DNA of 64,000 nt from Nocardioides sp. HDW12B. Lineage in GTDB: Bacteria > Actinomycetota > Actinomycetes > Propionibacteriales > Nocardioidaceae. Where the stretch lies: the NCBI RefSeq assembly GCF_011299595.1, contig NZ_CP049867.1:2666001-2730000 (forward strand), written 5' to 3'. Below the pieces are notes generated by a model. That model worked only from the letters and a program-made list of their open reading frames with translations. It had not been told where the DNA came from and did no database searches. Positions 35,686 through 42,641 of the stretch are shown here, piece by piece. How positions within the stretch are numbered: position 1 is the first letter of the stretch; every line of letters begins with the position of its first letter. The position numbers and the translations under genes are program-made.

Positions 35686-36573
35686 GTGAGCCGGGACAGC
35701 GACGCGTACGACGGGACCGACGACGGGGCGCGCGACCTGGACGACCTCGACCGTGGCAGCGACCTCGGGGGCAGCCACCGCAGCGCACGCGGCGTCCGGC
35801 TCGTGGCGATCGGCAACGGCGTGACCCGCGTCAGCTGGTCCGACGCGCTCCAGGCCCAGGGGTTCGACGCCGCCTCCGCCGCCGTGCGCGAGGAGGTCGA
35901 CCTCGCGCTGGAGCAGCTGAAGCAGCGGCGCGTCGAGGCCCTCGTCGACCCCGAGGACGTCACCGCCACGCGGATCGCGACCTGGGCCGGGCTGCAGCGC
36001 GAGGGCGTCATGCGGGGCGCGGTCGACCGGGCCGGCGAGACGGGCGACCGGGTCGTCTTCGCCCGCCTCCACACCGACGCCCCGGTCTCGAAGTCGCGCG
36101 GCTTCCGGGCCATCTTGAACTCGTTCCTCCCCCGCAAGCGCGCCATCGCGCAGATGCTGGTGCGCGACGAGCAGGGTCGGGTGCTGCTGTGCAACCTGAC
36201 CTACAAGCAGGACTGGGACCTGCCGGGCGGCGTCGTCGAGGTCAACGAGTCGCCGCGCGTCGCGGTGTCCCGGGAGGTCGAGGAGGAGCTGGCCCTCGAC
36301 ATCGACGCCGGCTCCCTGCTGCTGACCGACTGGCTGCCGCCGTGGAGCGGCTGGGACGACGCGGTCTGCTTGGTCTTCGACGGCGGTCGCCACGACGCCG
36401 GTCTCGCGGACCGCATCGTGCCGCAGGCCCGCGAGATCCGCTCCGCCCGCTTCTGCACCGTGGCCGAGGTGCACCAGCTCTGCGCCGACTTCACCGCGCG
36501 GCGCATCGACTCCGCCCTGGCGGCGGTCGACGGTCCCGCCCCGAGCTACAGCGAGAGCGGCCGGCCCGTCTGA
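35686..36573 (+). CDS. Nudix hydrolase with a GNAT-like N-terminal region
   Basis: A 295-residue protein. Residues about 145-285 form a Nudix domain with the box GGVVEVNESPRVAVSREVEEELAL, all glutamates in place, so it should hydrolyse a nucleoside diphosphate-linked compound. Residues 85-130 (TATRIATWAGLQREGVMRGAVDR ... VVFARLHTD) read like the last helix and strand of a GNAT acetyltransferase without its acetyl-CoA loop. Residues 1-28 are acidic and likely disordered. The last 28 bases overlap the 3' end of the convergent histidine kinase gene. Nudix activity is a confident call; substrate and the role of the front part are not known. Confidence 0.87.
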   Translation: MSRDSDAYDGTDDGARDLDDLDRGSDLGGSHRSARGVRLVAIGNGVTRVSWSDALQAQGFDAASAAVREEVDLALEQLKQRRVEALVDPEDVTATRIATWAGLQREGVMRGAVDRAGETGDRVVFARLHTDAPVSKSRGFRAILNSFLPRKRAIAQMLVRDEQGRVLLCNLTYKQDWDLPGGVVEVNESPRVAVSREVEEELALDIDAGSLLLTDWLPPWSGWDDAVCLVFDGGRHDAGLADRIVPQAREIRSARFCTVAEVHQLCADFTARRIDSALAAVDGPAPSYSESGRPV

Positions 36574-38054
36574 GCCGGGTGCGGCACCGCCCGGTTCGCG
36601 GGCGCCTCGCCCCCGGGCACCGACCCGCCGGACCGCTCCGCGGCCGGCAGGTGCACCGAGAACTCCGACCCGCCCCCGGGCCGGGGGTCGTAGTCGGCCC
36701 GGCCGCCCTGCGCCTCGGCGAGCGCGCGCACGACGTACAGGCCGAGACCGGTGCCCTGCTCGCGCGTCGACTCCGCGCGGGCGAACTCGTCGAACAGGCG
36801 CGGGCGGAAGTCCTCCTCCACCCCGGGGCCGGCGTCGAGGACCGCGACCCGGACGAACGGCCGCCGGACCGACGGCACCTCGGTGACCTGCACGAGGTAG
36901 GGACCGTCGGCGTACTTGAAGGCGTTGGTGAGCAGGTTCGCCACCATCTGGTTCACCCGGGTGCGGTCGGCCAGCACGACGACGTGCGCGGGGACCGACA
37001 CCTGCACCGGCTGCGCCCCCGCGACGTCGGCGACGATCTCACGCAGCAGCGGCGCCAGCTCCAGCCGTCGTACGTCGACCCGCAGCGTCCCGCGTCCCGC
37101 CTGGGCAGCGGCGAGGAGGTCGTCGGTGACGCGCTCGAGCACGGCGGCCTGCCGACCCACCGCCGCCAGGAGGTGGGTCTGCTGGTGGTCGCTGAGGCTG
37201 CTGCCGGCGTCGGCCACCACGCCTGCGATGCCGCTCAGCAACGTGACCGGGTTGCGGATCTCGTGGGCCGTGGTCCGGATGGCCCGACGCAGCCGCGCGA
37301 CCTCCTCGTCGCTGCGCGAGGGGGCGAGGCCGACGACGACCTCGACCCCGTCGCCCCGCACCGTCACGTCGATCGGCACCGGGCCACCGAGCACCCGGTC
37401 CTCGACGCCGGCGGCGAGGTCACCGCTGCGGGCCCGGCTCACCAGGGCCGAGAGCGGCGGGGAGAGGTCGCTCAGCGAGCCGGGGAGCGGCGTCGCGGCG
37501 TCCCAGCCCAGCAGGGCCCGGGCGGCCGGGTTGGCGTAGCGGACGTCGTCGTCGGCGCCGAGCACGAGCAGCCCGGTCGCGGTCAGCTCGGCTGCCCGGG
37601 AGGCCACCGGAGCCGTGACGGCCGGCGGCTCCCGGTCCGGCGCCCGGGGGCTGCGGGCCGACGGGACGGTCGCGGTCGGCTCCGGCTCGCGGCCCACCAG
37701 GGACCGCACCAGCGCCAGGATCTCCTTCGGCGAGGCCCCCTTCTGGACGTAGGCGTCGGCCCCGGCCCGCAGGGCCCGGTCCTGCATCGCACCGGCCTCG
37801 AACCCCGACAGCACGACCACGCGCGCCTCGGGGCAGCCGGCCTTGATGCGCGGCAGGGCCTCCAGGCCGTCCATCACGGGCATCGCGAGGTCGAGCATGA
37901 CGAGGTCGGGCTGCAGCCGCCCGGTGACCTCGATGCCCTGGCGGCCGTCCTCGGCCTCCCCGACGATCGTGATGTCGCCGTCGCGCTCGAGGGTCAGCCG
38001 CAGCAGCAGGCGCAGGTCGGGGGTGTCGTCGACGATGACCGCGCGCACGGTCAC
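36546..38054 (-). CDS. Response regulator-histidine kinase hybrid (REC-PAS-HisKA-HATPase)
   Basis: A 502-residue soluble two-component protein with the receiver at the front. REC spans 1-120 with phospho-acceptor Asp55 in LVMLDLAMPVMDG. A Pro/Ala linker leads to a PAS-like region near 155-190 (GLLVLGADDDVRYANPAARALLGW). The HisKA domain has His264 in TTAHEIRNPVTLLSG, and the ATPase has NLLTNAFKYADG, DAGPGVEEDF and GTGLGLYVV. No DNA-binding domain or membrane span. The GTG start overlaps the stop of the membrane sensor gene upstream (GTGA), so the two likely act together. Target of phosphotransfer unknown. Confidence 0.9.
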   Translation of the reverse strand: MTVRAVIVDDTPDLRLLLRLTLERDGDITIVGEAEDGRQGIEVTGRLQPDLVMLDLAMPVMDGLEALPRIKAGCPEARVVVLSGFEAGAMQDRALRAGADAYVQKGASPKEILALVRSLVGREPEPTATVPSARSPRAPDREPPAVTAPVASRAAELTATGLLVLGADDDVRYANPAARALLGWDAATPLPGSLSDLSPPLSALVSRARSGDLAAGVEDRVLGGPVPIDVTVRGDGVEVVVGLAPSRSDEEVARLRRAIRTTAHEIRNPVTLLSGIAGVVADAGSSLSDHQQTHLLAAVGRQAAVLERVTDDLLAAAQAGRGTLRVDVRRLELAPLLREIVADVAGAQPVQVSVPAHVVVLADRTRVNQMVANLLTNAFKYADGPYLVQVTEVPSVRRPFVRVAVLDAGPGVEEDFRPRLFDEFARAESTREQGTGLGLYVVRALAEAQGGRADYDPRPGGGSEFSVHLPAAERSGGSVPGGEAPANRAVPHPAQTGRPLSL

Positions 38055-38671
38055 GGGGTGTCCCCGTCCCGGTCGTCGGGGGTCTTCTCCGGCGGCGGAG
38101 CGGTCACCGCGGGGGTGCCGCGGAGCAGGCGCTCGGACGAGCCCCGCCGGTCCGGGCCGAGCAGGTCGGTGATCATGTGGCTGGCCGAGCTGATCGCGGT
38201 CTCCAGGGCCTCGGAGGCGCGGCGCTGGTCGCCGAGGTCGAGCGACATCTTGGCCACCACGAGCCCCTGCAGCACGTTGTCGTTGAGCTCGAGGGCCTGC
38301 TCCTCCCGCTTGCGCATGTCCTCGAAGAGCTGGGCTCCCTCCATCAGCGAGCCGTAGTTGCGACGCAGCGTCCAGTAGTAGACCCCGACCAGGGCGCCGA
38401 CGACGTCCCACAGCGCGAGCTGCCAGCCCCAGGCCGTCCGCATGGCGATGCCCTGGACCTCGTCCACGCCGAACACCGGCATGAGCATGTGCACCGAGTG
38501 CGTGCCGTGGTGGACCGCGCAGGTGAAGAAGATGGCGGCGGTCGCGCCGCCCAGGGGGTTCGAGCGGAGCTGCTGGCTGCGCACGAGGGGAACGACGATC
38601 GCGGCGCAGATCGCGAAGTAGGCGACGGCCACGACGGCGTTCGCCACCAGGCCGACCACCCACCAGTCCAT
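38051..38671 (-). CDS. Membrane sensor protein with histidine-less dimerisation helix
   Basis: A 206-residue protein with three or four membrane spans (about 5-30, 42-65, 83-102), including HHGTHSVHM, a histidine cluster in the second span. A coiled segment follows with LELNDNVLQGLVVAKMSLDLG near 127-146. This resembles the HisKA_3 dimerisation helix (ELHDxxxQ), but the phosphorylated histidine is replaced by Asn130 and there is no ATPase domain. The protein therefore cannot act as a kinase alone. It probably senses a signal and scaffolds the REC-kinase hybrid made from the overlapping next gene. The ATG at 38671 has AAGGA eight bases upstream. Confidence 0.85.
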   Translation of the reverse strand: MDWWVVGLVANAVVAVAYFAICAAIVVPLVRSQQLRSNPLGGATAAIFFTCAVHHGTHSVHMLMPVFGVDEVQGIAMRTAWGWQLALWDVVGALVGVYYWTLRRNYGSLMEGAQLFEDMRKREEQALELNDNVLQGLVVAKMSLDLGDQRRASEALETAISSASHMITDLLGPDRRGSSERLLRGTPAVTAPPPEKTPDDRDGDTP

Positions 38672-41370: not shown

Positions 41371-42567
41371 TCACCGGGCCGCGAGCACGTAGCCCCGCCG
41401 GACGACCGTGCGGACCAGCCCGCCGTCGTCGTCGGCCACGCCGTTCCGGCCGCCGTCCTGGCCGCCGTCCTGGCCGCCGTCCTGGCCGCCGTCCTGGTCG
41501 CTGCGGAGGGCGCCGCGCAGGGCCTCGCGCAGGCGCGCCACCGCGACCTCGGCCGCGTGCGGGTCGCGCGAGGCGCCCGGCAGGACGCGCAGCAGCTCCT
41601 CGCGGCTCACGACGTGGCCCGGGGTCGAGGCGAGCCGGCGCAGCAGCGCCAGCCCGCCCGGGGACAGCGGCACCGGTCGGTGGTCCAGCGTCACGGTGCC
41701 GGCCCGCAGCCGCAGCAGGCCGTGACCGGTGAGGAGCGCGTGCCGGTCGTCCCCCAGCTCCTCGAGGACCAGGCGCACGAGGTCGGCGAGCCGCGACGTG
41801 GCCGGGGTGCGCGCGAGCAGCCCGGCGAAGGACAGCGGCTCGGCGGTCACCGCGCCCACGGCGGCCAGCAGGAGCTGGCGCTCCTCCACCCGGGCCCGGA
41901 CCTCGTCGAGGCGGCCCTCCCGGCGTACGGCGCGCAGCCACGCCTGTGCCCCCGGCGCGCTGGTGAACAGCACGGCGTCGAAGCGTCCTGCCGCGGTGTC
42001 ACGGGCCGCGGACCGCACCGGCGGGCGGTCGTCGAGCGGGACCCAGCGGTAGGGCTGGAGTGCCTCCACCTCGGCCCCACCGGCGCGCAGCGCCTCCTCG
42101 AGGTCGGCGTCACGGCGACCGCCGTGCAGCACGAGCACCCGCGCGGCATCGACGCCGTCCGCCAGCAGCAGGTCGGCGATCCCGGCGGTCGTCTCGGCCT
42201 CGCCCAGCCAGTCCGGGCGGACCCCGAGCCGCTCCAGGGCGGCGCGCGCCTTGGGCCCCCGGGCCATCACGCGGGCGCCGGTGAGCAGGTCGAGCACGCC
42301 GGGTCCCAGACCGGCGGGTCCGACGGCGGCGCTCCAGCGGTCGACCGCGGTGGCGGTGACGACCACCACGACGTCGGGCGGCCGGCCGATCGCGTCGCGG
42401 GTCCGCGCGCGCAGCCGTCGCGCGCTCTCGTCGACCGAGGCCAGGGTCGGGGCGTGCACGACCGTGGCGCCCCGGTCCTCCAGGGCGGCGCCCAGGTCGT
42501 CACCGCGGCGCCGGGCGGTCACCAGGATCCGGGCTCCTGCGAGCACCGGGGCGTTGCCGGTCGGCAT
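41371..42567 (-). CDS. Uroporphyrinogen-III synthase-like protein fused to a winged-helix domain
   Basis: A 398-residue fusion. Residues 10-265 match the HemD fold, two Rossmann-like lobes with RILVTARRRGDDLGAALEDRGA, VVVVVTATAVDRW, RVLVLHGGRRDADLEEAL and FDAVLFTSAPGAQAWL. HemD closes the tetrapyrrole ring for haem and B12. The last 120 residues form a Trans_reg_C winged helix (VPLSPGGLALLRRLASTPGHVVSREELL ... VVRRGYVL). Similar fusions exist in actinobacteria and may regulate rather than make tetrapyrroles. A DGGQ repeat interrupts the winged helix. ATG 42567 follows a CACAGT box by six bases; GTG 42594 is the alternative. No other haem genes are adjacent. Confidence 0.88.
   Translation of the reverse strand: MPTGNAPVLAGARILVTARRRGDDLGAALEDRGATVVHAPTLASVDESARRLRARTRDAIGRPPDVVVVVTATAVDRWSAAVGPAGLGPGVLDLLTGARVMARGPKARAALERLGVRPDWLGEAETTAGIADLLLADGVDAARVLVLHGGRRDADLEEALRAGGAEVEALQPYRWVPLDDRPPVRSAARDTAAGRFDAVLFTSAPGAQAWLRAVRREGRLDEVRARVEERQLLLAAVGAVTAEPLSFAGLLARTPATSRLADLVRLVLEELGDDRHALLTGHGLLRLRAGTVTLDHRPVPLSPGGLALLRRLASTPGHVVSREELLRVLPGASRDPHAAEVAVARLREALRGALRSDQDGGQDGGQDGGQDGGRNGVADDDGGLVRTVVRRGYVLAAR
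41450..41497. repeat. Four tandem 12-bp repeats inside the HemD-winged-helix gene
   Basis: Four perfect copies of CCGCCGTCCTGG encode a QDGG repeat on the minus strand. The tract falls in a loop of the winged-helix domain, in frame, so copy number could change without breaking the gene. Confidence 0.9.
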
Positions 42568-42641
42568 GGCACCACTGTGGGCCGGTCCTGTCACCGCCGT
42601 CGGTCGCGGAGGTTACGGGCGTGCTACGTCGCCGCACCGGT

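Follow-up and report, generated by a model that had tools for sequence, protein, structure and literature searches.

A histidine-less membrane sensor paired with a soluble REC-first kinase in Nocardioides and its relatives: a possible receptor histidine kinase on two chains

Introduction

The membrane sensors of plant ETR1, SynEtr1 and AzoEtr1 of Azospirillum brasilense consist of three helices, with a Cys and a His in the second, and AzoEtr1 is followed by an overlapping gene that carries a receiver (REC) domain (in excerpts of PMC11819568). Here we describe a pair of overlapping genes in a 64,000-nucleotide stretch of DNA from Nocardioides sp. HDW12B (NZ_CP049867.1, 2,666,001 to 2,730,000; hereafter the window, from whose first letter all positions are counted). 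Gene 1 encodes the same type of three-helix sensor, with the Cys and His in register, and gene 2 encodes a soluble REC-PAS-HisKA-HATPase kinase. AzoEtr1 has its own PAS-kinase, whereas the window sensor has none, the kinase being placed behind the REC domain in gene 2; furthermore, three of the seven ethylene-binding positions of AzoEtr1 and ETR1 are changed in window-type sensors.

The cytoplasmic tail of gene 1 resembles a second group of proteins. NarX, DesK and other bifunctional kinases of the HisKA_3 family have a DHp hairpin with D-x3-Q in the same spacing, but in gene 1 the His is replaced by Asn and the ATPase domain is missing. DxxxQ serves HisKA_3 proteins as their phosphatase motif, and CheZ also uses DxxxQ to hydrolyse the aspartyl phosphate of a receiver (PMC3510030, in part). 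In the H188-D189-Q193 motif of DesK, D189 pairs with the receiver and Q193 positions the water, and in NarX the phospho-His is dispensable for dephosphorylation (sections of PMC5231405). DivL of Caulobacter likewise has a non-phosphorylatable residue at the His site and acts on a receiver; it differs in its CA domain, its PAS sensors, its lack of phosphatase activity and its separate REC partner DivK. A hybrid kinase from Actinoplanes (L092; L numbers denote the loci compared) has the same sensor family and the same parts naturally fused as sensor-PAS-HisKA-HATPase-REC, albeit in one chain with REC at the end and without an Asn helix at that position. The receiver phosphatases CheZ and CheX, unlike gene 1, are neither membrane sensors nor DHp hairpins.

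Because a single domain of sensor kinases serves both kinase and phosphatase activity, the two are difficult to separate. The unit described here is real and conserved, but built of known parts. Our first choice, which we regard as about evenly balanced between right and wrong, is a receptor histidine kinase divided between a soluble kinase and a membrane sensor-phosphatase, in which the sensor would gate dephosphorylation of the partner REC domain. In the portions of the open-licence full-text literature that were covered, no paper was recognised as describing such a unit, which is weak evidence of absence.

A conserved pair of overlapping genes

The pair comprises the following features.

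38051-38671, minus strand: gene 1, membrane sensor with a His-less HisKA_3-like hairpin (206 amino acids, ATG start)
36546-38054, minus strand: gene 2, soluble REC-PAS-HisKA-HATPase kinase (502 amino acids, GTG start)
38051-38054, minus strand: four-base overlap GTGA, made up of the gene 1 stop (TGA) and the gene 2 start (GTG)

For comparison, 80 loci were reduced to 67 distinct ones (13 duplicates) by identity over the first 110 sensor residues from the match; close relatives, e.g. L056 and L057, remain among the 67. Forty-nine helix-bearing relatives were chosen by the presence of D131 and Q135 together with Asn or His at position 130. The remaining 18 comprise fusions of the sensor to other domains (L044, L091-L102, L104, L105, L107) and sensors broken in assembly (L038, L103). 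Two of the 49 have no sensor columns (L039, which is cut, and L053, a soluble PAS protein), leaving 47 for the membrane part.

The coordinates, frames and residues of both genes were borne out on re-reading. The initial annotation took them for a two-gene signalling unit, and the pair is indeed kept together, being adjacent in many other genomes. Gene 2 starts at offset -1 from the gene 1 stop in 45 of 49 distinct loci (including L082, whose contig ends before the partner gene becomes readable), and the unit is therefore not a product of chance. When seven window genes were sought in 55 other loci, many with about 6 kb per side and some with less, the five neighbours outside the pair (glgB, Nudix, TPR-thioredoxin, PH-domain and HemD genes) recurred only in the same-genus locus L036, thus marking the pair as the conserved unit.

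The Asn helix of gene 1

The cytoplasmic part of gene 1 has two features of interest.

38159-38332, minus strand: DHp-like hairpin, helices 114-145 and 149-171, with no ATPase domain behind it
38267-38284, minus strand: N130-D131-N132-V133-L134-Q135, Asn at the His position followed by D-x3-Q

That Asn130 occupies the phospho-His position of a HisKA_3-like helix was read directly from the sequence, and no HATPase family was found among the Pfam matches of gene 1 up to E 10, in agreement with what had been noted at first. Gene 1 thus lacks both hallmarks of a HisKA_3 kinase, the phospho-acceptor His and the HATPase domain, and its match to HisKA_3 falls short of the Pfam cut-off (E 0.075; 14 bits vs 24), so that it has no over-cut-off profile match to a HisKA_3-type DHp fold. 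What it does have is the feature of a HisKA_3-type receiver phosphatase, D-x3-Q beside the His position. As both this match and that of the PAS domain in gene 2 lie below cut-off, the two labels rest on position and on family comparison. In a profile comparison with the HisKA_3 helices of the same genome, N130 fell on the His column (28 columns, 43% probability, pairwise E 2.5e-4). With Asn130 and no ATPase domain the hairpin cannot take up phosphate, and the membrane protein cannot be a phosphodonor.

Position 130 is Asn in 48 and His in one of the 49 distinct helix-bearing relatives, and the Asn is therefore not strain-specific. The sole distinct relative with His, L050 (= L062), reads ELHDS and still has no ATPase domain in that gene. 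Apart from gene 2, a kinase with a DHp of its own, no separate ATPase partner of the membrane protein was found. D131 and Q135 are present in 49/49, both being part of the selection, and D-x3-Q is also invariant in alignments A1 and A6. As a control, the same genome has 18 HisKA_3 helices over cut-off, of which 15 were readable and all 15 have His; the residue at His+5 is Gln in seven, His in six and Pro in two. Since Gln occurs there in only 7/15, the invariant Gln of the Asn helix is not trivial.

A search of the Protein Data Bank (PDB) sequences with the helix profile gave three matches at E <= 1, the best being a designed helical repeat, and the gene 1 protein (P0001) had no match at E <= 0.1 in the plasmid collection. 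Diverged relatives of the helix in the class sample (L128-L144, mostly family f21) end short proteins, many of them with membrane segments; their motif is x-D-D-[LIV]-V-Q, in which D-x3-Q is kept and the His position is Gln in most of those read, Ser in L128 and Ile in L134.

Gene 2 and the receiver linkage of the Asn helix

The domains of gene 2 were located as follows.

37707-38039, minus strand: REC domain, residues 6-116 (Response_reg, 5.6e-23), with D55 at 37890-37892
37407-37595, minus strand: PAS-like domain, residues 154-216 (PAS_8, 20.0 bits vs a cut-off of 21.8)
37095-37292, minus strand: HisKA DHp domain, residues 255-320 (1.2e-6), with H264 at 37263-37265
36639-36968, minus strand: HATPase_c domain, residues 363-472 (6e-22)

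The REC-PAS-HisKA-HATPase order with D55 and H264 was confirmed by direct reading, with the PAS match just under cut-off. Gene 2 has the REC, His-bearing HisKA and HATPase domains of a hybrid histidine kinase in one chain, with REC at the front and not at the end. Among 48 aligned partners the D55 column holds Asp in 47, the remaining row (L053) having been read in the wrong frame, and the H264 column holds His in 44 (doubtful in L090) and Met in one (L055), and is absent in three (L117, L122, L053). The L055 sequence comes from a metagenome-assembled genome (MAG), and its Met could be an error.

The REC domain of gene 2 has 33 other matches in its own genome at E <= 1e-6. The nearest is fused to another Asn helix (48% identity, 2.5e-29; the next has 35%, 1.8e-20) and sits outside the window in a PAS-PAS-Asn helix-REC protein (L035:5145-7055, minus strand). 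The linkage of helix and receiver recurs in other genomes. When the helix profile from alignment A3 was run on 296 genomes of the class, with E < 1e-11 as a strong match, REC was linked to the Asn helix in 14 of 16 strong matches, several of which stem from, or duplicate, rows of the search profile itself and hence are not independent; in 13 it was fused or in the next gene, and in L168 it lay about 0.6 kb upstream. In L117 and L122 the gene that follows the ETR-like sensor encodes REC alone, and no kinase resembling gene 2 was found in the 11.0 and 12.0 kb searched; in L121 such a REC-only gene follows a PAS protein. REC is fused behind the helix in L035, L123, L124 and L125, and L167:4000-5130 is REC-Asn helix-REC with nothing else recognisable. 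A REC-only gene (L053:9203-9580) likewise lies next to the helix gene of L053, a locus obtained in a different search. Taken over the various architectures, the Asn helix has a REC domain as its genetic partner, not a kinase. The weaker helix matches L128-L144 had no REC at E <= 1e-4 in the 17 fetched loci, with about 1.5 kb per side.

These results bear on two other ways in which the pair could work. The initial annotation regarded gene 1 as an inert membrane scaffold, whose DHp-like helix would heterodimerise with the HisKA of gene 2 and relay the membrane signal mechanically. A pair conserved with an overlap of the translational-coupling type, which makes near-equal expression plausible, and an Asn that cannot be phosphorylated would both suit such a scaffold. 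However, the helix of gene 1 is HisKA_3-like and the DHp of gene 2 is HisKA, which makes a mixed bundle unlikely; the helix is also seen beside the REC-only partners, where 11-12 kb contained no related kinase, and in REC fusions that include no kinase; and invariant D131 and Q135 are not predicted for an inert scaffold. The dimerisation proposal was thus not supported, and as the two helices belong to different families it is the least favoured mechanism, one that we consider very unlikely.

The main rival is a tail that would read its partner in the manner of DivL, i.e. bind the REC domain according to its phosphorylation state without removing the phosphate, the membrane protein then receiving information from REC, or the kinase simply being recruited to the membrane. 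DivL carries Tyr at the His site and does not depend on kinase activity; it binds DivK~P without transferring phosphate to or from it (as given in parts of PMC4211667). Docking would account for the REC linkage of the Asn helix just as well as catalysis would. On the other hand, the catalytic Gln and Asp are kept in 49/49, and pure binding needs neither. The missing CA domain of gene 1, which fits such a reader, also sets it apart from DivL, which keeps its CA domain, and gene 1 thereby lacks the HisKA and CA core with a non-His residue that defines a DivL-type pseudokinase. DivL is, furthermore, of the HisKA type. We judge such a reader to be possible but rather unlikely.

The membrane sensor of gene 1

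Three helices make up the membrane part of gene 1.

38579-38665, minus strand: helix 1, residues 3-31, with N11, Y18 and I21 at ETR1 D25, Y32 and I35
38471-38557, minus strand: helix 2, residues 39-67, with C51, H54, H55, H58 and H61
38342-38425, minus strand: helix 3, residues 83-110, with D89

An AlphaFold2 model of gene 1 predicts a cytoplasmic hairpin along with three long membrane helices (mean predicted local distance difference test score, pLDDT, 85.5; predicted template modelling score, pTM, 0.61). Residues 7-74 match the Pfam family ETR1_N (PF25487) narrowly over cut-off (27.8 vs 27 bits, E 3e-6), a likeness that the initial annotation had missed. As in that family, there are three membrane helices with Cys and His at the copper-ligand places of helix 2, C51 and H55 standing where ETR1 has C65 and H69. 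In alignment A6, to which the window protein belongs, 31/31 members gave ETR1_N matches at E <= 0.1. Run on 197 genomes of the family, the model gave 24 matches, one per genome and seven over cut-off, all of them the same sensor as that of gene 1, and in 14 control genomes it gave no match. The pattern C-x2-H-[HW] is present in 23/24 loci of this Pfam-based set (the 24th, L023, was read as L171), which is free of the bias of the genome-contig scan, where the search patterns contained C-[AS]-V-H-H and the invariance of Cys and His is partly built in.

Seven plasmid ETR1-type loci (Azospirillum, cyanobacteria and others) were found with an Arabidopsis ETR1 segment, and then aligned. The profile comparison with these loci was gapless through helices 1-2 (probability 38.6%, pairwise E 3.2e-4) and paired N11 with D25, Y18 with Y32, I21 with I35, C51 with C65 and H55 with H69. 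In the reverse search the ETR locus was the sole, weak match (E 0.004-0.017) in 3/7 plasmid records, and none was obtained in four. The gapless alignment at this probability and the three reverse matches point to a homology with ETR1 that is distant but in register. A PDB fold search with the gene 1 model gave 76 matches at E <= 10 and none at E <= 0.001, and a PDB sequence search with the sensor profile gave no match. On an Acaryochloris plasmid, the annotation of an ETR1-type receptor (L110:2965-5447) is divided among three coding regions in succession, and the gene may be broken.

Could the sensor be a true ethylene receptor acting via Cu(I)? This would be compatible with any output model. 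For it speak the ETR1_N match with its 31/31 aligned members, the equivalents of Y32, I35, C65 and H69 in register, and the likeness to ethylene-binding AzoEtr1, whose gene likewise overlaps a REC gene downstream of it (PMC11819568, in part). The seven ethylene-binding positions of ETR1 used here are consistent with the columns of the plasmid ETR alignment. Four of the seven are kept, namely the equivalents just named; the remaining three are replaced in 23/23 aligned sensors (D25 by Asn, P36 by six other residues, I62 by Phe), and the full set of binding residues of a functional ethylene receptor is thus not present. In AtETR1, mutation of C65 or D25 eliminates ethylene binding (excerpts of PMC11819568), though D25 has no match in one of the seven plasmid ETR-type loci either. 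In the published model copper is held by C65 and H69 (PMC6586836, in part). The window-type sensors have further His residues in helix 2: H54 is invariant (47/47 with the helix, 18/18 other sensors), H58 is found in 47/47 and 17/18, and H61 in 46/47 and 14/18. None of the three is common to the seven plasmid loci, and the extra His at 54 and 58 suggest a different site. Together with the low probability of the profile comparison and reverse matches in only three of seven records, this makes an ethylene receptor improbable. The sensor is of the ETR1_N type and probably metal-binding, and with only 4/7 positions kept we do not call it an ethylene receptor.

A proposed split receptor kinase with a sensor-gated phosphatase

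The anatomy, conservation and pairing of the two genes, the REC linkage and the distant sensor homology are the observations on which we build the following proposal for phosphatase activity, docking, gating, metal and direction of response. Gene 1 would be a membrane sensor, presumably a dimer, whose three-helix ETR1_N-type domain probably holds a metal. Its tail, a HisKA_3-type hairpin without phosphate uptake, has kept D131-x3-Q135, which would serve for docking of the receiver and for positioning the hydrolytic water. The state of the sensor would set the docking of the tail on the front REC of gene 2 and the removal of phosphate from Asp55. Gene 2 would autophosphorylate on His264 and could load its own REC or have it loaded by other kinases, and its output would be gated by REC phosphorylation.

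We prefer this sensor-gated phosphatase of the partner REC because D131 and Q135 are kept while the kinase-only features are dropped, and because of the REC linkage. AzoEtr1 with its REC gene, and the Actinoplanes fusion, contain the same parts in a more usual order, and the window unit is therefore best regarded as a rearranged receptor kinase, distributed over two chains.

Several points weigh against the proposal. DrBphP needs ATP for its phosphatase activity (in sections of PMC8292422), and the missing CA domain of gene 1 therefore counts against a strong phosphatase; the CA domain of DesK also touches the receiver (PMC5231405, in part). DivL, a His-less DHp, binds its receiver without dephosphorylating it (passages of PMC4211667). 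The HisKA_3 match is below cut-off and the comparison with canonical helices spans 28 columns at 43%. His is back in L050/L062, and the partner kinase of L055 has Met for H264. The strong helix matches are partly rows of their own profile, as stated above; two of them have no linked REC, L127 having none near and L126 only a regulator, distant in appearance, that lies 1.3 kb downstream. Outside the window, the same genome encodes a third Asn-helix protein (L164:5826-6950, minus strand, 374 amino acids, ...ANDNVLQR..., PAS-like by eye), in whose sequence no ATPase was seen and which had no REC within a 12-kb stretch.

Viewed more broadly, kinase-dead, ATPase-free HisKA_3-type hairpins may form a recurring actinobacterial module, serving as sensor-gated receiver phosphatases on ETR1-type metal-site or PAS sensors, usually with a receiver of their own, be it a separate protein, a fusion or the front domain of a soluble kinase. 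The two activities, as a rule combined in one bifunctional enzyme, would then belong to two proteins, kinase and phosphatase, of which only the phosphatase sees the membrane signal. This generalisation is tentative, and we rate its chances at somewhat under even. If true, a natural and conserved split would allow kinase and phosphatase to be tested one without the other, and would show that a DHp hairpin can be a complete output domain even where an ATPase domain is missing. The ethylene-receptor sensor family would also extend to actinobacteria with a changed metal site, raising the question of what else the fold detects.

Distribution and neighbourhood

The 53 named loci are mostly from Nocardioides and Marmoricola, and also from Frankiales MAGs and one MAG labelled Chloroflexi. 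The sensor was found in 8 of 296 genomes sampled across the phylum and is therefore patchy. Four loci with other outputs were scanned: besides the Actinoplanes hybrid kinase, ETR-like sensors occur on cyclic di-GMP enzymes, namely PAS-GGDEF-EAL in L102, PAS-GGDEF in L104 and GGDEF in L044.

The initial annotation also stated that no DNA-binding output is encoded nearby. This has to be qualified by a HemD protein (41371-42594, minus strand) with a uroporphyrinogen-III synthase domain and a winged helix (HEM4 and Trans_reg_C), whose gene lies 2.7 kb upstream of the pair with two genes between. HemD is not a convincing output, as it is near the pair only in the same-genus L036 among the loci searched. 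A promoter scan gave no promoter-like site, and a terminator scan gave one terminator-like site, inside gene 1 (1 found vs 0.3 expected).

In a smaller all-against-all comparison of flanking open reading frames from 19 loci, beyond the pair and shadow frames, clpB recurred in 10 loci and a DUF445-like gene in seven. Counting duplicates, clpB is within reach in 29/54 rows, mostly 2.3-2.6 kb upstream and on the opposite strand, and it is not near the pair in the window, L036 and 23 other rows; its proximity is read as local synteny. The clpB-bearing loci of the Nocardioides type include L040, L054 and L085.

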